Virus record (IMG/VR): IMGVR_UViG_3300005613_000426
Span: 1 to 22,945 of that record
Strand: one strand, 5' to 3'
Length of the DNA stretch: 22,945 nt
Source: a virus
Shown here: in pieces, positions 2,907 through 17,180 of the stretch
How positions within the stretch are numbered: position 1 is the first letter of the stretch
Layout of the letters: each line of letters starts with the position of its first letter
Notes under the pieces: model-generated
Database searches by the model: none
Told to the model about the DNA's origin: nothing
What the model saw: the letters and a program-made list of their open reading frames with translations, nothing else
Program-made: the position numbers and the translations under genes

Positions 2907-2979
2907 AGCCCCCGACAAGACTTGAACTTGCGACATCAGCTTTACAAAAGCTGCGCTCTACCAACTGAGCTACAGGGGC
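2907..2979 (-). tRNA. tRNA-Thr (anticodon TGT)
   Basis: A 73-nt cloverleaf can be folded by hand: acceptor GCCCCTG with CGGGGGC (one G-U pair), D arm GCTC...GAGC, anticodon stem CAGCT/AGCTG around loop TTTGTAA (anticodon TGT, codon ACA), and T arm GCAAG/CTTGT around TTCAAGT. The discriminator is U and CCA is not encoded. It sits in the early-type cassette next to tRNA-Leu. ACA is a favoured Thr codon in AT-rich phage genes, so it probably supplements the host pool. Confidence 0.96.
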
Positions 2980-3010
2980 ATTTGAGATTATTTAGAGAAT
3001 AAATCTCAAG

Positions 3011-3095
3011 TGCGAGTAGGGAGACTTGAACTCCCACGGGCATAATGCCCAACAGATTTTAAGTCTGGTGCGTCTACCGATTCCGCCATACTCGC
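3011..3095 (-). tRNA. tRNA-Leu (anticodon TAA)
   Basis: An 85-nt class II tRNA: acceptor GCGAGTA/TACTCGC, discriminator A, anticodon stem CAGA/TCTG with loop CTTAAAA (anticodon TAA, codon UUA), a long variable arm GGGCATTATGCCC that forms its own stem, and T arm GGGAG/CTCCC around TTCAAGT. CCA is not encoded. TTA is heavily used by AT-rich phage genes, so this tRNA likely aids translation in the host. Confidence 0.97.
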
Positions 3096-8746: not shown

Positions 8747-10099
8747 TTAGTAAGATTTTCTACCAAAACTATCTCTAACAAGAGTCATACTAGTAAAAGT
8801 ATCTCTTGGTGTAATACGATGACATAAACTTGCTATCATATATATACCACCACTTTTCTTATTATATGATTTATTATCGTTGATAGTTAGTTCAGGAAAG
8901 TCACAATGAATTAAATCCCCCGCCCTTAAACTAAAATCACCAGCAATTGTGACATTAATTTTAATAATAAACATTTGATTATATCTCATCACCGATTGTA
9001 CCATTGTTTTTGGCGCATCAAATGTTGGATTAAATGGTTGATCTTTCCAATTTGATAATTGTTCTGCAGTAGATCTGCCGGAAGGTAAAGTTCCAACATC
9101 AAGAACTTGATTCATTAATCTTGAAGTTGGAGTTCTAAATTCCTCCGCAACAGTATTAATTGGATCTAGTCCACCAGTTACAATTTTTTCACCTTGATTA
9201 TCATCAACGTTATAATCTCTTACCTCATAATCCATTGCATAAAAATCAAAGAACAAACTCCGATTTGAATATGTTCCCAATACTAGATTATTTTGAAGAT
9301 CAATATCTCTTTCTATATTATATGATAATATCTTTCCAGAATAACCTTCGGGTTTTTCTGCAGTATTATTGTAGATATAGTTCTTCTTGTATTCTTGACT
9401 AAAAAGAGAATCAATAGATCTAAAATTAAATCCATCATAAGTTTCATAAAATAAATATCCCGCTGCTCCGCCAGATTGTCCAGCATTTGAAGGAATTGAT
9501 TTTGATGCCAGCCAAGTGCAGGTGTAAAAAGGTTTTCTATCATTTCCAATAAAATTATAATTATTACTTGTCTCATCAACAATTACATTTTTTTTAGTTT
9601 TAATGCCAACCGCACCTGAAGTGGATTGTGTAAGTATACTTCTTACAGAATCTGATATTTTTCCTTCATATCTTTTTACAACTCTACACTGCTCATTTGC
9701 AAATAATTCTCTTGATGTAAAATCAATATAATATACATCTTTCTGAGTTCCAGGATCAATGTCCCTGACACGATTGATGTATAATGATGTATCATTTTTA
9801 AACGTCAATGTATTTGGATTATCTTGAGAATCATTAAATACGATAAAAGATTGTTCTCCACCACGAATTGGAAGAGTGTCAATCATCCCCCTATCTTTCA
9901 AGGTTTCTTTTGTTTGCGAATCAGTAAATCCAGTTTCTACAACTGTAGCAGTTAATGAAACTGAATTTGATAATATACTCTCATAATAACTAAGTTCGAC
10001 AATAGCTGCAGATAAATCAACCGATTCTCCACTATCTTGTGCCTGGAAAACCTGAAACTGAGTTATATTACCAACTCTTGTATTTGTATTATCTGCCAT
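8747..10099 (-). CDS. Baseplate hub subunit, gp27-like
   Basis: The 450-residue protein lies directly upstream of the gp5-like gene, as expected for the gp27-type hub partner. Features are mixed beta: an N-terminal domain (QFQVFQAQDSGESVDLSAAI, LSYYESILSNSVSLTATVVE) and a C-terminal part with FSLRAGDLIHCDFPEL followed by GGIYMIASLCHRITPRDTFT and LVRDSF. A barrel with a final 'xYMIxSLxHxI...TxxxLVRDS' strand is the usual ending of hub proteins of the gpD/gp27 class. T4 gp27 has 391 residues. Its start overlaps the previous stop (TAATG). The assignment is by context and pattern, since gp27 family members diverge strongly. Confidence 0.65.
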   Translation of the reverse strand: MADNTNTRVGNITQFQVFQAQDSGESVDLSAAIVELSYYESILSNSVSLTATVVETGFTDSQTKETLKDRGMIDTLPIRGGEQSFIVFNDSQDNPNTLTFKNDTSLYINRVRDIDPGTQKDVYYIDFTSRELFANEQCRVVKRYEGKISDSVRSILTQSTSGAVGIKTKKNVIVDETSNNYNFIGNDRKPFYTCTWLASKSIPSNAGQSGGAAGYLFYETYDGFNFRSIDSLFSQEYKKNYIYNNTAEKPEGYSGKILSYNIERDIDLQNNLVLGTYSNRSLFFDFYAMDYEVRDYNVDDNQGEKIVTGGLDPINTVAEEFRTPTSRLMNQVLDVGTLPSGRSTAEQLSNWKDQPFNPTFDAPKTMVQSVMRYNQMFIIKINVTIAGDFSLRAGDLIHCDFPELTINDNKSYNKKSGGIYMIASLCHRITPRDTFTSMTLVRDSFGRKSY

Positions 10100-12678
10100 T
10101 ATCCTTGTTTGTATAAGAACCCAGTAAGTTGAGTTTGATAGTAACTATTTAATAATGCTTTCTTAGACATTCCTATTGGCATTGGAAGAACACCACCACC
10201 AACGGGAAGTACTCCCCCCTGATCTGATGGAATTGGAATAGGAACCATTACAGTCCCACCTCTCCGATCATAAGATGCTTGTTGAGCAATCTTTTGCGCT
10301 TGTGCAGTAGCAGCAATTCCACCTTTTTGATCTAAAGATGCTAAGAATTTTGTAGGATCTAAAGTTCCTTCAAAGGATCCAGAAGCTCCCGCCTTTCCTT
10401 TTCGTATTTCATAATGAAATACACCAGTTTGACTTGTTCCTTTTTGAACTGGAGTTCCTGGACGGATGACATCACCAACTTTAACAAGGTTTACGTCACC
10501 TTCAGCAATTCTTTCAGTAACTCCAAGTTCACTATTGTAAACATCAACAACATTTCCATATCCACCGCCAGCATTTGCTGCATATATCACACGTCCACCA
10601 ATTCTACTATAGAACTTATCATTAGGCCCAGCATCAAAATCTACTCCAGCGTGTTTTCTTCCACCAGGGCGATGAGCGCCATAATGTTGCCTTCCAGGGA
10701 GAGTATTTGTTGGTGGTAATGGTGGTAATTGAGATTGTTTTATTAAAGGAGTTGATGGTGTTGCTGGAGGAAGTTCTGGTGCTGGGGGTGCTTGTGTTTG
10801 TCCAGTAGAAATACCTGGGAAGTTTGGTTTTCCAGCAGGCCCTGGATTAGTTTTTCCATATGCAATAGATCCTGGGCCAACGTACCACCCAAATAAATGT
10901 CCATATCTAGTTTTATATCCAAGTCCACCAGGATATTTGTTTGCTGCACTAGGAACTGCAAAGTCCGTTCTTCCCCCTACCCAATCAGCAGCATTTTTCA
11001 TCAGAGTTAGATTTTCTAATGCCCTTGCAGTATCATTAATTATTCTTTCTGCTACGACTCTACTTGTAATATTTGGGTGGGATAGAACTGCATTAATAGC
11101 ACTTTCTCTGTCAGATATACCTGCAAATAAATTAGAATTACCTTCTCTTACTGGTTGATATTGATTTTTTGCTAAGATATGTCCTTTAATTGTATCTGAT
11201 CTTTGCCCAAAATTTTTGCCAGATGCAACTCTATTGTAAATCGATTGTGCAACATCTGCTCTTCCCTGTTGATTGCTACTTTCAAGCGATGAAATTGCAA
11301 CTAATGTCCACCAATCAGCATTTGCACCTTCAGGAACATCTCCAGTTGTTCCCAAATCTCCTGGCATTGGTTGATTAAATCCTTGATATGGATCGGTATT
11401 TTTATTGCTGGAAGGTGGATTAAGTTCTTCTTCTGGAGGTTTAATTTCAAATACCTTTGCCTTTAGTTGCTTATAGATTTCTTTTCCAGCCCAATCTCCA
11501 ACAATACCACCAACAAATCCACCAGCAAGTGTACCAAGTCCAGGAAAAATTAAACTTCCAACACCAGCACCAATTGAAGCACCAAGAGATGCACCTGCTG
11601 CTCCTGCAACTGCATTGTCCAATTGTTCTCCCATTGCCATATCAATACCAATACCAATCAATGCACCAATAAAAGGAATTCTTTTGAAGACTTTTGAAAC
11701 TTTCCCAAGTCTTTTTACACCTTTATCTCCAAATAAATTCTTTGCACGATCTATTGTTGTTGTAGATGTTGGTTTTGGAGTTGATGGTTTTGCAGGTTTG
11801 ACTGGTTTTTTTGCAGTAGGTTTTGCTTTCGAAGGATCAACTCTTTTTGGAGTCCCACCTCCCCTTGTAGTTGGTGTTCCTGTTACAAGTCCTGCGACTT
11901 GTTTAATTTTATTAGCAACAAATTTACCGACACCTACCAAAAGATTTTTTAATGACACCCCAAGTTTCTTTAATAGTTTTCCTGCCAGAGTGGCGGGCCC
12001 TTTTGTGATTAATTTTCCAAACTTTAATAATGCTCGAATTTGCTTTCTAAAAACTGTTGTGAGACTTATAATTCCAATACGAATAACATCCCAAATATTA
12101 TTAATACCACTTGCAATATCATCAAAAATTTTAAAGATGGTGTCGCTATTCTTAAGAAGAAACTTAAGTAAACTTCCAATCAAAATACTCGTAAAAAAGT
12201 TCATGATTTTATCCATGAAACTCATTTTAGGAGCAGATGGAAGTAAACCACCATCTTTCTTTTTAACTTTCTTCTCTTCTAATTGTTCCTCCCGTTCCTT
12301 TTTATCTTCTTTATCATCTTCCTTTCTTTGGTTTTCTGCTTCTTTTTTTGTCTTCTTTTTCTTTTCTTTAAAATACTTAATAATATTATCAAGAATTTCT
12401 GAAATATAATTTCCTTTCTTTTTCAAATTTTCTATAGTTGCATCTTCGGTTGACTTATCTTCAACCGATTTAACATCATCAACAAACTTTGAAAGATTAA
12501 TTTTAGGTGCAGAAGGTGCTAAAGATATTGATTTTTTTGTAACCTTAACGATATCAGATCCACTTTTAGTATCAGAAGATCCAAGTAACTTCTTACCATC
12601 TACCTTTTTTGTTTCGGTAGATTTGGAACCCGATGGTAAAAGTAACTTTGTTGCTGTGCCTGCTAAAAGTGGTAACAT
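10099..12678 (-). CDS. Large tail protein with SleB hydrolase and degenerate M23 domains
   Basis: The 859-residue order is: a Lys/Glu-rich coiled segment (100-142), a hydrophobic helix (FMDKIMNFFTSILIGSLLKF, 154-173), a further helical part, a glycine zipper (about 356-397, AGASLGASIGAGVGSLIFPG), a SleB-type cell-wall hydrolase domain (455-605, with E466 in SLESS and DVAQSIYNRV), a Pro-rich linker, and an M23-like domain (660-780). The M23 domain keeps zinc ligands H676, D680 and H755, but the catalytic histidine of the usual HxH is V753 and the middle catalytic histidine is also not evident, so the peptidase looks dead. The protein shares its helix motif with the upstream large protein. A hub/tail component that opens the cell wall and perhaps inserts into membrane is likely. 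Confidence 0.75.
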   Translation of the reverse strand: MLPLLAGTATKLLLPSGSKSTETKKVDGKKLLGSSDTKSGSDIVKVTKKSISLAPSAPKINLSKFVDDVKSVEDKSTEDATIENLKKKGNYISEILDNIIKYFKEKKKKTKKEAENQRKEDDKEDKKEREEQLEEKKVKKKDGGLLPSAPKMSFMDKIMNFFTSILIGSLLKFLLKNSDTIFKIFDDIASGINNIWDVIRIGIISLTTVFRKQIRALLKFGKLITKGPATLAGKLLKKLGVSLKNLLVGVGKFVANKIKQVAGLVTGTPTTRGGGTPKRVDPSKAKPTAKKPVKPAKPSTPKPTSTTTIDRAKNLFGDKGVKRLGKVSKVFKRIPFIGALIGIGIDMAMGEQLDNAVAGAAGASLGASIGAGVGSLIFPGLGTLAGGFVGGIVGDWAGKEIYKQLKAKVFEIKPPEEELNPPSSNKNTDPYQGFNQPMPGDLGTTGDVPEGANADWWTLVAISSLESSNQQGRADVAQSIYNRVASGKNFGQRSDTIKGHILAKNQYQPVREGNSNLFAGISDRESAINAVLSHPNITSRVVAERIINDTARALENLTLMKNAADWVGGRTDFAVPSAANKYPGGLGYKTRYGHLFGWYVGPGSIAYGKTNPGPAGKPNFPGISTGQTQAPPAPELPPATPSTPLIKQSQLPPLPPTNTLPGRQHYGAHRPGGRKHAGVDFDAGPNDKFYSRIGGRVIYAANAGGGYGNVVDVYNSELGVTERIAEGDVNLVKVGDVIRPGTPVQKGTSQTGVFHYEIRKGKAGASGSFEGTLDPTKFLASLDQKGGIAATAQAQKIAQQASYDRRGGTVMVPIPIPSDQGGVLPVGGGVLPMPIGMSKKALLNSYYQTQLTGFLYKQG

Positions 12679-12679
12679 A

Positions 12680-14980
12680 TTATCCGATTAAATTATAGAT
12701 TGATTTAACCACTAATGTTGTCATATTATTTGGATCTTCTGAAGAGAATGATGGTACAGTTGCTTGTTGTCCAGAAGATCCACTTGTAGGAGCTTGAACT
12801 CCACCTTTTGTTGGAATTGGAATTGGAACAACACTCACTTGAGAAGCAGATGGAGCACTTGGAACTTGTGATTTTTTACTACCATATGTTTCTATTATTG
12901 CTTGGATGACAGGATTTCCTGCTGCTTGTTTAGCACCAATATCACCCTTTAATAATCCTTGTTCATAACCACCTTCCAATTTTGCAAGTTCAATCATACT
13001 AATTCCACCACGATTCATAGCATATCCTTGTTGAAATCTTCCCTTATATCCTGCACCAAAAGATCCTACACTACTTGCAAGAGCTGAATCTAATTTTGAA
13101 AAATTCGTATAACTTCCAAGCAATCCTGCCCCCATTCCTTGTGGGCCATAAGCATCATGATGAATTTCTAAAACTTCATATCCTTGACTTTCCAATCCTT
13201 TATAGTAAGAAACTGCTTTCCTAAGTCCATCATCAGAATCTGGAAACATTTTTTCAAAATATTGAATTGGAATTTTAGGATCTTTTTGTTTTACTTGATT
13301 GACAATAAATTGAGCCATTACTTTATTTGCTTTCAATTCGCCCATTTTTCCAGTTGCTCCAGGAGTTCCACCACCATAGGTATGTCCAGGAACAACTACA
13401 ATTCCTTTTGGAGCATTGCCACTTTTAACTTTTGCAATAGAATTTCTAACTCTAGTAATTCCATATTGTTTATCCATTCCAACTTGTCCACCTTGTTGCA
13501 TTGCTTGAATTCCATTCAATGCTCCGAATTTTGGTTGATTGGTAGATCCTGCCATTGAATTCATGGCAAGTAAATTGCCAGCACCAAACATATCAACGGC
13601 AGGTTTGCTCATCATTACTTCCCCAGGTTGAGCAGCAATAAGTTGAGTATCTTTTCCAAGTCCTGTGATTGTTAATCCAGAATTATTGGTTATATTTCCA
13701 CCTTCAGCATATGAAAGTTCTTTTACATTAATGACTGTGCCACCTTCTTCTTGTTGTTGAACTGGAATTGTGGGTATTTGTATTGGAGAATTATCTGGTA
13801 ATCTATTAATTGGTTTAAACTTTATTGGATCTTGTCCAAAAAACTTCGTGACATTATTGATAGTATCGATTGCACCTTGTATTCCAGTATTCATCTGATC
13901 AATGATAAAATTAATTGGAGAGGTAACAAATCTCCACAACCAATTAATAATTCCATTCAAAAAATTTACAATTCCATTTACAAAATTTTTCAAAGGATTT
14001 AATATTATACTAGGATCATTAATAACTTTCAATAAAAATTTAACCGCAGATCCAAGAAGAATCATCATAAAGAAATTCTTTATCCTATCAAAAAAACTTA
14101 CAAATGGTTTTGTAACTTTTTTAAATATATTTTCTGTTTTAGATTTTGATTTTGATTCTAATTCTTCTTCTCTTTTTTTCTTTTTTTCCTTCCTACCTTT
14201 TCTTCTTTTTTTCTCTTCTGCTTTTTTTTCTTCCTTATCTTCTTCTCTTATTTGATTCAATAATTCATCTAACTTATCACCAATGGTATCCAACTCATCA
14301 ATAATAGCTTCTTTAAATTCTATAACTTCCTCTGCTGTTTTTTCTTCTCCAATTTCTGCTTGAGGTAATAATTTTTGAGCATCAATGGTTGTCTTTTTTG
14401 GTGTCGGTGTCTTTTTATCTAACACCTTTTCAATACTTATCTGTTTCTTCTTTACTTTAAAACTTCCCGTTTTTCCACGAACTCTTTTATATTCATTCGT
14501 AATCAACTCTGCACTTTCAGTAGTCATTTGACTACCAGACATTCGTGCTTGTACTGCTTTTTCCTTTAAAAGAGTTGCATATTCTTCATAAGTTAAATCA
14601 AATACATCTTCCAATCCTAGGATAGAAAGAATTTGAGAGTCTATTTCTTCTTCTACAAGATCATCTGGTTTTTTAGGAACAATTGCAAGTGCTCCTGGAG
14701 GTTCTTCGCTTCCTCTTATATCGCCAAGTAAATCATCCAATCCTTCGGGAATATCTTCTTCCTGATCTTCAATTTCTTGTATTAAAGTTTTTGCCATGTC
14801 GGAAAGATCGTTCGTCTTCCCCATCGCAACATCATTATCAATTTGACTCTGCTCCTTTTCACTTAAGGAGTTGTAGTAATTCGACAGAAGAGAAATTTGA
14901 GCATCAGAAAGTTTATCGGTTAATTGCTTACCGAGTTTAAATTCATATGCTTTTCTTAATTTTTCCGTCTTAGTTGCCAT
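12680..14980 (-). CDS. Tape-measure-like tail protein with amidase_3-type domain
   Basis: The 766-residue protein begins with helical, acidic sequence, has a very Lys/Glu-rich coiled coil (245-275), then hydrophobic helices (FFDRIKNFFMMILLGSAVKF, 296-315; NFVNGIVNFLNGIINWLWRF, 332-351). Its C-terminal domain (about 525-680) reads as an N-acetylmuramoyl-L-alanine amidase: PGHTYGGG (H533), GELKANKVMAQF (E548), LEIHHDAYG (H607) and SMIELAKLEGG (E664), which give the expected zinc ligands and catalytic Glu. Position right after a G/GT-like gene pair with a frameshift signal, and the mostly helical body with membrane segments, suggest the tape measure role of T4 gp29, although the 859-aa neighbour is the rival candidate. 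The start overlaps the small -1 ORF by 11 nt. Confidence 0.7.
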   Translation of the reverse strand: MATKTEKLRKAYEFKLGKQLTDKLSDAQISLLSNYYNSLSEKEQSQIDNDVAMGKTNDLSDMAKTLIQEIEDQEEDIPEGLDDLLGDIRGSEEPPGALAIVPKKPDDLVEEEIDSQILSILGLEDVFDLTYEEYATLLKEKAVQARMSGSQMTTESAELITNEYKRVRGKTGSFKVKKKQISIEKVLDKKTPTPKKTTIDAQKLLPQAEIGEEKTAEEVIEFKEAIIDELDTIGDKLDELLNQIREEDKEEKKAEEKKRRKGRKEKKKKREEELESKSKSKTENIFKKVTKPFVSFFDRIKNFFMMILLGSAVKFLLKVINDPSIILNPLKNFVNGIVNFLNGIINWLWRFVTSPINFIIDQMNTGIQGAIDTINNVTKFFGQDPIKFKPINRLPDNSPIQIPTIPVQQQEEGGTVINVKELSYAEGGNITNNSGLTITGLGKDTQLIAAQPGEVMMSKPAVDMFGAGNLLAMNSMAGSTNQPKFGALNGIQAMQQGGQVGMDKQYGITRVRNSIAKVKSGNAPKGIVVVPGHTYGGGTPGATGKMGELKANKVMAQFIVNQVKQKDPKIPIQYFEKMFPDSDDGLRKAVSYYKGLESQGYEVLEIHHDAYGPQGMGAGLLGSYTNFSKLDSALASSVGSFGAGYKGRFQQGYAMNRGGISMIELAKLEGGYEQGLLKGDIGAKQAAGNPVIQAIIETYGSKKSQVPSAPSASQVSVVPIPIPTKGGVQAPTSGSSGQQATVPSFSSEDPNNMTTLVVKSIYNLIG

Positions 14981-15146
14981 GTTGTTGCTGCTTTAATTTT
15001 TCATCTTCAAGATGTTGTTGTAACAGCCCAATATATACATCTCTTTCCCAAGGAATCAGATTTTCAATTTCTGTTAATGAATATTTATGGTACTGCATTA
15101 AAGCAAAATTAATTCTATAGTAATTTTCAAGATCCATATGGATCAT
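14970..15146 (-). CDS. Small -1 frame ORF after gp26; candidate frameshift extension (T-like/gp51-like)
   Basis: The frame from the ATG at 15146 to the TAA at 14970-14972 encodes 58 residues (55 from the ATG at 15137), including DLENYYRINFALMQYHKYSL and ENLIPWERDVYIGLLQQHLE. The IPWERDVYIGLL pattern resembles the C-terminal extension of tail assembly chaperones. It lies in the -1 frame of gp26, starts 2 nt past the gp26 stop and overlaps the start of the large tail gene by 11 nt. It can be reached by the frameshift cassette at 15131-15176, giving a gp26 fusion of about 298 residues, or by re-initiation. Function inferred: chaperone for the tape measure protein, as for gpGT in lambda or gp51 in T4. 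Confidence 0.7.
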   Translation of the reverse strand: MIHMDLENYYRINFALMQYHKYSLTEIENLIPWERDVYIGLLQQHLEDEKLKQQQHGN

Positions 15147-15176
15147 CCCTATCCGAAAAAACTGGATAAACCCTCC
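15131..15176 (-). promoter_or_regulatory. Candidate programmed -1 ribosomal frameshift cassette
   Basis: In minus-strand order: GGAGG (15176-15172), a 10-nt spacer, the heptamer T TTT TTC (15161-15155) in the correct gp26 frame (xxT TTT TTC), the gp26 TAG stop (15151-15149), then the palindrome GATCCATATGGATC (15144-15131), which can form a 5-bp stem with an ATAT loop. SD-like box, slippery site and stem-loop occur in the same order as in E. coli dnaX. The GGAGG is too far from the next ATG (25 nt) to act as its binding site. A -1 slip joins gp26 to the small downstream ORF. Confidence 0.7.
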
Positions 15177-15865
15177 AGAACGACAGTACTTTCAATTTGA
15201 GTTTTTGGATTTGTAAATGTAATTTCGTGAGATAATTTTGGCATTGTTTCAAAAAACTTTTCAATTTGTTTAAATTGAATGCTATTCATCTGCTCAAGAA
15301 AATCAATGATCTCTTTTTTCGTTACATCAGAAGAAGCCCAAACTTCTTCTTCGTTATAAATTTTATCAACACAAGAAGCAATCAATTCAAACGATTGATC
15401 CACATTACTTTCGGAAATATCAAAATTACTTTTAATAAATTGATCCAAAGATGGATATTTCATTTCCATAATTAAAGAATCATCAAGTTTAATTTTATTC
15501 GTATGTCCATCCTTCCTTTGAACTTTAATATCATCGATATTAATACTAACTGAAACCGATGTTTCTCTATCATCAGGTGCAATCAAATTAACTTCAACCT
15601 GTTCACCAACAGACTTTCCACGAATATTGAGGAACAAATATTCAATATCAAATGTAGGAAGAGATTCTATTTTAATTCCCCTCGTTTGAATACAATTTTT
15701 CAATACTGCTTTAATTGCGTTTGAAATTTCTTTTGTATCCTCAGTTTCTAATGCTAAAACTAAAAGTTTTTCTTCCTTAACTAAAAAAGGCCTATATTTG
15801 ATCGTCTTCCCATTTGATGGCAACTCAAGATCATAAGTTGGTGTTGTAATTGTAGGTAAAGGCAT
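15149..15865 (-). CDS. 26: Baseplate hub assembly protein gp26-like (T4_baseplate family)
   Basis: The 238-residue product begins MPLPTITTPTYDLELPSNGK and contains TIKYRPFLVKEEKLLVLALE, ENCIQ-type helix, then LPTFDIEYLFLNIRGKSVGE. This is the pattern I recognise for the T4 gp26/T4_baseplate family (PxxGKxIKYRPFLVKEEKxLL...DIEYLFLxLRxKSVGE). In T4, gp26 has 208 residues and works in central hub assembly. The gene begins the long minus-strand late operon: AATAAATA lies 27 nt before the ATG and AGGA close to it. Its last codons SSFFG contain the slippery heptamer described separately, so a longer fusion with the next ORF is predicted. It may act as chaperone of the tape-measure-like protein. Confidence 0.8.
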   Translation of the reverse strand: MPLPTITTPTYDLELPSNGKTIKYRPFLVKEEKLLVLALETEDTKEISNAIKAVLKNCIQTRGIKIESLPTFDIEYLFLNIRGKSVGEQVEVNLIAPDDRETSVSVSINIDDIKVQRKDGHTNKIKLDDSLIMEMKYPSLDQFIKSNFDISESNVDQSFELIASCVDKIYNEEEVWASSDVTKKEIIDFLEQMNSIQFKQIEKFFETMPKLSHEITFTNPKTQIESTVVLEGLSSFFG

Positions 15866-15892: not shown

Positions 15893-15900
15893 TATTTATT
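15893..15900 (-). promoter_or_regulatory. Late promoter AATAAATA for the baseplate operon
   Basis: The minus strand reads AATAAATA, an NATAAATA late motif, 27 nt before the gp26 ATG. It overlaps the tandem TAA stops of the upstream 265-aa gene. I see no comparable motif in an intergenic position between here and 3569, so this promoter probably drives about 12 kb. Confidence 0.65.
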
Positions 15901-16696
15901 ATGTCAATCCAGATGTTGGAATACCACCAGATCCAAATACAGGAAGAATTGGCCTTTCACTCAAAGGTAACGGAACTCCATTAATAGGTGGTACATCTGG
16001 ATTTCCTGGTGCATTTTCATTTCTTACATATCCACTCGAACCAATGTTTAATCTTTCTCTTACATATCGAATATAAGAAAATGAAACAGTACATTTCAAA
16101 ATTTGACTTTGATCATATGAAACTGGCATTGATACAATATTTGTAGGAAATGCATCAACAAAAGTGTACTTCATCATTGTTTCTGATGTATTCGATCTAC
16201 CGGTTTTAAAATGTTGATCTTTCTCAAATTTTATAAGTTCAATTCCACCTTTATAACTTTTGGGATAATTTATTCGATAATATGCATTCCTGTTTTTATA
16301 GTCTTGCCTCGATAAAGTAGATCCTTCCCCGACAATATAATTAATCCAGCCATCAAAATATTCAATTACTTTATAATCTCGATCAACATAAAAAGTTAAA
16401 TCTAAACTTTCATCATAAATTCTTCGATAACCCATTTTTTCTGTGACTCCATGATAGTCACTTGTAACATCATGAGTCGCAACTGATGATCCTGGTAAAG
16501 ATGCCTCAGTACAAAGTAAATTTATGTCATCAAAATTCTGTCCTGTTATATCAGGTGCTCTTAATGTATTTGATAAAAAACTTGGCACTCCAGGCCCTGG
16601 GGTTATGGTAACTCTATAAAGAGAAGTTTGTGCAAGATTTAATAGTCTAGATTTGATATCACTTATTGTCAACTTTTCTGGGGTGATACCTGCCAT
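15899..16696 (-). CDS. gp19-fold tail tube/baseplate tube-initiator protein (gp54-like)
   Basis: The 265-residue product has the gp19-type pattern: CTEASLPGSSVATHDVTSDY near residues 62-81, a GYRRIYDESLDLTFYVDRDY strand pair, then VIEYFDGWINYIVG, which match LPGxxxxT...tFxvdxdyxxxxxFdxW in tail tube proteins. It ends with a Pro/Gly-rich tail. T4 has three proteins of this fold: gp19 (tube), gp48 and gp54 (baseplate tube caps). Since gp48 is encoded close by on the other strand, gp54 is the best guess. The gene starts at 16696, divergent from gp4 with only 37 nt between start codons. Its own promoter is unclear: CATAAAGA in the gap is one mismatch from the late motif. Confidence 0.65.
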   Translation of the reverse strand: MAGITPEKLTISDIKSRLLNLAQTSLYRVTITPGPGVPSFLSNTLRAPDITGQNFDDINLLCTEASLPGSSVATHDVTSDYHGVTEKMGYRRIYDESLDLTFYVDRDYKVIEYFDGWINYIVGEGSTLSRQDYKNRNAYYRINYPKSYKGGIELIKFEKDQHFKTGRSNTSETMMKYTFVDAFPTNIVSMPVSYDQSQILKCTVSFSYIRYVRERLNIGSSGYVRNENAPGNPDVPPINGVPLPLSERPILPVFGSGGIPTSGLT

Positions 16697-16705: not shown

Positions 16706-16733
16706 TCTTTATGGTATATATTATGTAGTCAAG

Positions 16734-17180
16734 ATGGGAGAAAGTATCAAGAGTAGATACAAACCCGAGAATCCTAAAAAATATAAAGGAAATCCAAATA
16801 ATATTATTTGTCGTAGTAGTTGGGAAAGACGTTTTTGTCGTTGGTGCGATTTAAACGAAAATGTTTTGGAATGGGGTTCTGAAGAATTTTTCATACCATA
16901 TATTTCTCCTATAGATAATCGTGTTCATCGATATTTTCCCGACTTTATAATCAAAATTAAACAAGATACTAGTGAAATTAAAACCTATATTATTGAAGTT
17001 AAACCAAAACGTCAAACAATTCCTCCCACAAAAACTCCAAAAAAGAAAACTAAAACTTGGATTAATGAAGTCAAGACTTATGCAGTAAATGAAGCAAAAT
17101 GGAAAGCTGCAAAAGAGTTTTGTGATGATCGTATGATTGAATTCAAAATTATCACAGAAGACAACCTAGGAATCAAGTAA
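16734..17180 (+). CDS. 4: Head completion protein gp4
   Basis: The 148-residue product matches T4 gp4 (150 residues) along its length: YKGNPNNIICRSSWERRFCR, WGSEEFFIPYI, RYFPDFIIKIK, YIIEVKPKRQTIPP, INEVKTYAVNEAKWKAAKEF and IITEDNLG all have clear T4 counterparts. The D...(I)EVKP layout is that of a PD-(D/E)XK-type nuclease fold. In T4, gp4 (with gp50/65) acts after DNA packaging so that tails can join heads. An in-frame ATG at 16653 would add 27 residues overlapping the divergent gene, but the late promoter lies inside that extension, so 16734 is preferred. It joins the next gene by a TAATG overlap. Confidence 0.92.
   Translation: MGESIKSRYKPENPKKYKGNPNNIICRSSWERRFCRWCDLNENVLEWGSEEFFIPYISPIDNRVHRYFPDFIIKIKQDTSEIKTYIIEVKPKRQTIPPTKTPKKKTKTWINEVKTYAVNEAKWKAAKEFCDDRMIEFKIITEDNLGIK

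Follow-up and report, generated by a model that had tools for sequence, protein, structure and literature searches.

How does a marine T4-like virus produce its tail assembly chaperones, and do some ribosomes leave the gp26 frame before they reach its stop codon? According to a standard review (Atkins et al. 2016, PMC5009743), the G-T frameshift is a conserved property of long-tailed phages 'except T4'; the lambda G protein attaches to the tape measure and the T tail to the tube protein. The initial annotation of the window, by which we mean the whole stretch of 22,945 nucleotides that was analysed, proposed that a -1 frameshift joins the gp26 gene of a T4-like phage to a hidden small ORF, the two forming a G/GT pair. 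The layout that it described, with GGAGG, T TTT TTC in the gp26 frame, a 14-nt palindrome and a 58-codon -1 ORF overlapping the next gene, is indeed present on the minus strand at 15176-14970. The locus comprises the following features.

15899..16696, minus strand: tail tube protein (PF23849 4e-16, phrog_45 4e-40), directly upstream of gp26
15149..15865, minus strand: gp26 (238 aa), putative G-like tail assembly chaperone; PF12322 / phrog_150 'baseplate hub'
15171..15176 (15176-15171), minus strand: GGAGGG, putative SD-like stimulator, 9 nt 5' of the heptamer
15155..15161 (15161-15155), minus strand: slippery heptamer U UUU UUC (T TTT TTC) in the gp26 frame, 0-frame codons AGT TTT TTC
15149..15151 (15151-15149), minus strand: gp26 stop TAG, one codon (GGA) past the heptamer
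15131..15144 (15144-15131), minus strand: perfect 14-nt palindrome GATCCATATGGATC, beginning 10 nt past the heptamer
15131..15144, minus strand: stem-loop GATCC-ATAT-GGATC, 10 nt 3' of the heptamer
14970..15146, minus strand: gp51 / T domain, 58 codons, in the -1 frame relative to gp26; phrog_634 1.3e-26
12680..14980, minus strand: next gene (766 aa), candidate tail/lysin or tape-measure-like gene with weak matches to tape-measure PHROGs (E 0.003-0.005)
10099..12678, minus strand: 859-aa protein that matches a tape-measure PHROG (phrog_167) and contains an M23 peptidase domain

The gp26 gene matches its family strongly in Pfam (PF12322, 1.4e-73; 247.6 bits vs a curated cut-off of 24.5) and in PHROG (phrog_150, 1.4e-78). 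On the minus strand its 3' end reads ...CTG GAG GGT TTA TCC AGT TTT TTC GGA TAG, followed by GGATGATCCATATGGATC. The -1 frame stays open up to the stop at 14970, overlapping the start codon (ATG, 14980) of the next gene. The predicted length of a gp26-51 fusion is 237 + 3 (RIG) + 58 = 298 aa, in agreement with the product of about 298 aa suggested initially, and the predicted junction peptide in its window form is ...SSFFR / IGMIHMDLENYYR. The gene order is tail tube gene, gp26, gp51 and two large tape-measure-like genes, the first of which has weak PHROG matches; in the annotation of HTVC008M a 'putative tail tape measure' is placed two genes past gp51.

The small ORF does not deserve the label 'hidden'. 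It is a member of phrog_634 ('baseplate hub assembly catalyst') and is usually annotated as gp51; the ORF of the window also matches phrog_150 at positions 241-281. In cyanophages the ORF is known as gp51, but many records miss or truncate it, and in several it is left unannotated or is started too late. The T domain is entirely unannotated, lying in the gap after gp26, in Aeromonas phage CC2 (L282), Cronobacter phage S13 (L284), Vibrio phage VH7D (L089) and VmeM-32 (L087).

The conservation of the junction was examined in 209 distinct relatives from IMG/VR scans and among named phages; T4-type phages and two Vibrio phages were kept separate, and one contig with a premature stop within gp26 (L179) was excluded. 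The first 80 IMG/VR loci were picked by gp26 similarity alone. TTTTTTCG was found at the same place in 80/80 of them, and the offset of gp51 was identical wherever gp51 was detected. Across the full set an in-frame U UUU UUN occurs at the end of gp26 in every junction (209/209), as TTTTTTC in 194, TTTTTTA in 7, TTTTTTT in 7 and TTTTTTG in 1, and the gp26 stop follows 0-2 codons past the heptamer in all relatives. Elsewhere in the same gp26 genes, 48,455 codons contain 13 in-frame U6 heptamers. The conservation of the heptamer at the gp26 end is far beyond chance. The site is found in phages of Prochlorococcus, Synechococcus, Pelagibacter, Sinorhizobium, Stenotrophomonas, Citrobacter, Vibrio, Desulfovibrio and Rhizobium, and also in Aeromonas phages CC2 and phiAS5 and Cronobacter phage S13. 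The record of Stenotrophomonas phage IME-SM1 (L285:1925-1935) reads TTTTTC, with five T compared with six in relatives, and its annotated gp26 misses the usual stop and continues in another frame; this is possibly a homopolymer miscount.

The heptamer encodes a pair of phenylalanines, and could in principle be the by-product of a Phe-Phe C-terminus needed by the protein. The pair is conserved at the end of gp26, including that of T4, where it is coded by TTCTTT and is not slippery. The choice of codons, however, is not what such a requirement would produce. Among relatives less than 90% identical, TTT encodes the first Phe of the slip site in 154/154, with zero synonymous variation, and TTC the second in 143/147. 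Codon entropy at these two positions is 0.00 and 0.18, whereas all other conserved codon columns have values of at least 0.30. The codon before the pair, which may encode Ser, Asp, Asn, Ala, Gly or Thr, always has T at its third position. Phe-Phe pairs within gp26 genes use T TTT TTY in 2 of 218 internal cases, as opposed to 201 of 201 terminal ones. In seven relatives Phe is replaced by Leu (TTA), and the slippery string is kept nonetheless. No slippery string is present in T4 gp26, which ends in Phe-Phe-Glu-Leu-Leu and lacks a -1 partner. The codon choice leads us to reject a requirement of the protein for Phe-Phe as the source of the heptamer, an explanation that we regard as close to refuted.

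An SD-like box (GGAGGG, GAGGG or AAGG(G)) is located 8-9 nt upstream of the heptamer in nearly all relatives. The mean energy of the anti-SD duplex, computed across relatives over the last 400 nt of gp26, reaches its minimum of -6.3 just upstream of the heptamer, against a background with a mean of -0.02 and an sd of 1.34. The minimum lies at the spacing of 9-14 nt upstream of the slip site that characterises the SD-like element of dnaX-type signals. Loss of the heptamer or of GGAGG in relatives retaining both ORFs, the pattern initially named as speaking against a frameshift, was looked for in the junction set; the heptamer is kept throughout and the box nearly so.

The window palindrome folds as a stem of 5 bp with a 4-nt loop (-6.3 kcal/mol), a 7-bp stem being impossible for a 14-nt palindrome, and by itself this hairpin is ordinary when compared with shuffled sequence (z -0.7). 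The case for a downstream hairpin is made by the comparison among relatives and not by the window fold alone. The 36-nt segments downstream of the heptamer are on average more stable than their shuffled versions (mean z -1.9). In most clades the stem-loop is strong and shows compensation, with the P-HM1 group (GCCCTC...GAGGGC) among the strong cases; it is weak in the window, and folding of these segments against shuffles found no simple downstream hairpin in the S-RIM2 clade. In the clade of the window, 81% of cells in the 5-bp stem are paired, vs at most 53% when the stem is slid along the alignment, and changes on both sides of the stem number 42 vs 13 expected from shuffles; the shuffles ignore relatedness, and these figures are supportive only. 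Across relatives the hairpin is positioned 5-10 nt 3' of the heptamer, with compensatory changes present, and relatives without the window-type stem often carry a different stem at the same place.

These elements bear on the possibility that the fusion is produced by RNA polymerase slipping on the T run rather than by the ribosome. A T run is present in every relative and reaches T8 in the Pelagibacter phages. In most relatives, however, the run is just 6 T, which is short for polymerase slippage. In transcriptional slippage, neither the compensated hairpin nor the conserved SD-like box with its constant spacing would have any function, and on these grounds we reject this route as highly improbable.

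Past the heptamer, the -1 frame continues into the T domain in 208/209 relatives, the exception being S-SCSM1. Purifying selection acts on the T frame, where the pN/pS ratio is 0.18 vs 1.28 and 2.18 in the other two frames. For 40 relatives, no more than 7-13 nt separate the opening of the -1 frame from the gp26 stop, and therefore the slip must take place at the heptamer. No ATG, GTG or TTG is found within 17 nt past the gp26 stop in 100/209 relatives, and the conserved start of the T domain is therefore reachable there only via frameshifting; the other relatives, including the window, have such a codon. In S-RIM2 and Syn9 the annotated gp51 starts about 48 nt inside the conserved region.

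Where a start codon is available, ribosomes could terminate at the gp26 stop and reinitiate at the ATG past it. Such translational coupling would yield gp51 as a separate small protein and make a fusion unnecessary. An ATG 2-14 nt past the stop in the window and in about half of the relatives is consistent with reinitiation, as is the annotation of gp51 as a gene of its own in databases. Reinitiation does not account, however, for the relatives that have no start codon near the domain, or for S-RIM2 and Syn9 with their late gp51 starts, and it leaves the absolute conservation of U UUU UUN unexplained. The distance of about 24 nt between the SD-like box and the ATG is too great for initiation, whereas the box is well placed for frameshift stimulation, and gp51 of T4 is a real fusion. 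We consider reinitiation improbable as the explanation of the junction; where the ATG is present, an extra, free gp51 may also be made alongside the frameshift product.

Some phages do depart from the frameshift arrangement, and they count against it. S-SCSM1 (L094:1485-1510) keeps the heptamer and has an 11-nt insertion (aatcctaatag) directly past the gp26 stop, which shifts gp51 to the +1 frame and leaves reinitiation as the sole route to it. The insertion is either a natural loss or a sequencing error; a second case of this type was not found in the IMG/VR scan. Vibrio phages YC (L088:2200-2220; classed in Ackermannviridae) and K361 (L093:2080-2095) encode gp26 together with a T-like domain in its -1 frame but have no heptamer. 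The overlap of stop and start codons (TAATG) in both suggests translational coupling in place of frameshifting. The missing hairpin of the S-RIM2 clade is also a point against the frameshift, and so is the ATG near gp51 in the window and in many close relatives, which could give a separate gp51.

The AlphaFold2 model of gp26 has a pLDDT of 87. Compared with the PDB, it gave at the top of the list 3fgx (Z 8.0), 2ob9 (7.9), 3klu (7.3) and 5ir0 (5.3), followed by an unrelated structure at 3.1; a Z near 8 is borderline by the comparison tool's own note. The match is confined to the N-terminal ~88 residues, of which ~85 are aligned at 5-8% sequence identity, and the C-terminal ~150 residues have no clear structural match. 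The entry 2ob9 is the HK97 gp13 tail assembly chaperone and 5ir0 is a protein of a Vibrio PICI-like element; 3fgx and 5ir0 are labelled uncharacterised. The entry 3klu is Bacillus YqbN, a relative of tail assembly chaperones. Foldseek alone places 2ob9 at an E of about 1 for the gp26 model. A list headed by tail assembly chaperone structures, obtained independently of the frameshift, would be hard to get by chance, even with a borderline fold score for the predicted model. The G/GT interpretation gains support because the predicted fold of gp26 best matches tail assembly chaperones, and this joins the open and selectively constrained -1 frame in favour of the pairing put forward in the initial annotation. 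The model of T4-type gp51 shows its T tail as three helices. Chaperones were not listed when this model was compared with the PDB, in a list that other domains can fill. Scanning the small domain against Pfam, and searching PDB sequences with profiles of gp26 and of the T domain, returned chance matches only.

T4 has been taken as the exception to tail frameshifting. Its gp26 and gp51 are described as 'hub assembly chaperones', and gp51 as an 'essential protein of unknown function' (PMC3004832). T4 gp26 (208 aa) and gp51 (249 aa) are encoded on opposite strands, and to this extent the initial statement that T4 has separate genes 26 and 51 stands. The two are not merely separate, however. PF12322 covers the whole length of both proteins (8.8e-64 for gp26 and 3.9e-52 for gp51), and gp51 alone continues into the T domain, matching phrog_150 to position 280 and phrog_634 at 1.2e-23. 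Profile comparison of T4-type gp51 confirmed both halves, the gp26-family domain and the T tail. By their profiles the two T4 proteins are paralogues, gp51 consisting of a gp26-family domain plus a T tail and gp26 lacking the tail. The likeness of the small ORF to T4 gp51, raised at the outset, is borne out: the window ORF aligns with the C-terminus of T4-type gp51 at an hhalign E of 2e-7. In Klebsiella phage CP-p-KP-21068 (L286:1201-2492) the gp51 and gp26 paralogues overlap in tandem on the same strand, unlike the divergent genes of T4.

The frameshift form is kept within Straboviridae, in the KVP40-like phage VH7D and in CC2, phiAS5, S13 and Ci1. The family tree contains three groups, T4-type gp51 (99/97), T4-type gp26 (98/100) and the frameshift group, which includes the two Vibrio phages (91/92); long branches blur the root of the tree and with it the direction of change. 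We lean towards a history in which the frameshifted gp26/gp51 is the original G/GT pair across the T4 superfamily and T4-type phages duplicated the gene, the gp26 copy losing the tail and the gp51 copy fixing it in frame. If this is true, the essential and unexplained gp51 of T4 would be its version of GT, and the 'T4 exception' would reflect the loss of an otherwise conserved tail frameshift. Recoding and gene duplication would then form a rare natural pair of solutions to the same dosage problem.

Judged from these comparisons, gp26 and the -1-frame gp51 ORF very probably correspond to G and T of a tail assembly chaperone gene expressed via a -1 frameshift. The best explanation of the data is that T4-like phages outside the T4-type group have gp26 and gp26-51 as their G and GT chaperones, and that T4 has two genes instead of the frameshift. 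Most ribosomes would terminate at the gp26 stop and yield the G-like protein of 238 aa. A minority would shift into the -1 frame at U UUU UUC and produce the GT-like gp26-51 fusion of 298 aa, aided by the SD-like box 9 nt upstream and usually also by the downstream hairpin. Production of the fusion in infected cells is inferred, and so are its ratio to gp26 and its binding partners. By analogy with lambda, the gp26 part may coat the tape measure or hub assembly, and the short helical T tail may recruit the tail tube protein; neither gp26 nor gp26-51 need remain in the virion. T4 would make the same two products from its paralogous genes, gp26 as G only and gp51 as a G-domain permanently fused to the T tail.

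The proposed arrangement resembles lambda G/GT in that the slip occurs at the extreme 3' end of the G gene, the small T domain is in the -1 frame, the gene follows the tail tube gene and precedes large tail genes, and the G part is chaperone-like in its predicted fold. The lambda slip site is G GGA AAG, whereas gp26 has U UUU UUN with an SD-like stimulator and belongs to a group thought to lack the frameshift. Sequence similarity of gp26/gp51 to lambda G/T was not found. With T4 the window shares an orthologous gp26 family and the same T tail on gp51; T4 differs in having two genes on opposite strands and no slip site. The signal is like that of E. coli dnaX, with an SD-like box about 10 nt upstream, a heptamer of homopolymer type and, in most clades, a stem-loop downstream. 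Unlike in dnaX, the heptamer is U UUU UUC and not A AAA AAG, the gene is unrelated, and the hairpin is shorter, further away, variable and missing in the S-RIM2 clade. HK97 gp13 (2ob9) and Bacillus YqbN (3klu) are among the best structural matches of the gp26 model, in the range of Z 7.3-8.0; they differ from gp26 by its extra C-terminal ~150 residues and by the low sequence identity given above.

An earlier report of a gp26/gp51 frameshift or of their paralogy was not found in the open-access literature. Chaperone roles for T4 gp26 and gp51 are not new, and have been proposed in work cited in PMC9024508. The mechanism is of a known kind; its place and the resulting explanation of the two T4 genes appear to be new.

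Outside the gp26-gp51 junction, the window carries tRNA-Thr(TGT) and tRNA-Leu(TAA) genes on the minus strand at 2907-3095. The head closure protein (gp4-like, phrog_218) at 16710-17177 has a match to a TnsA-like endonuclease domain (PF08722, 4e-22).
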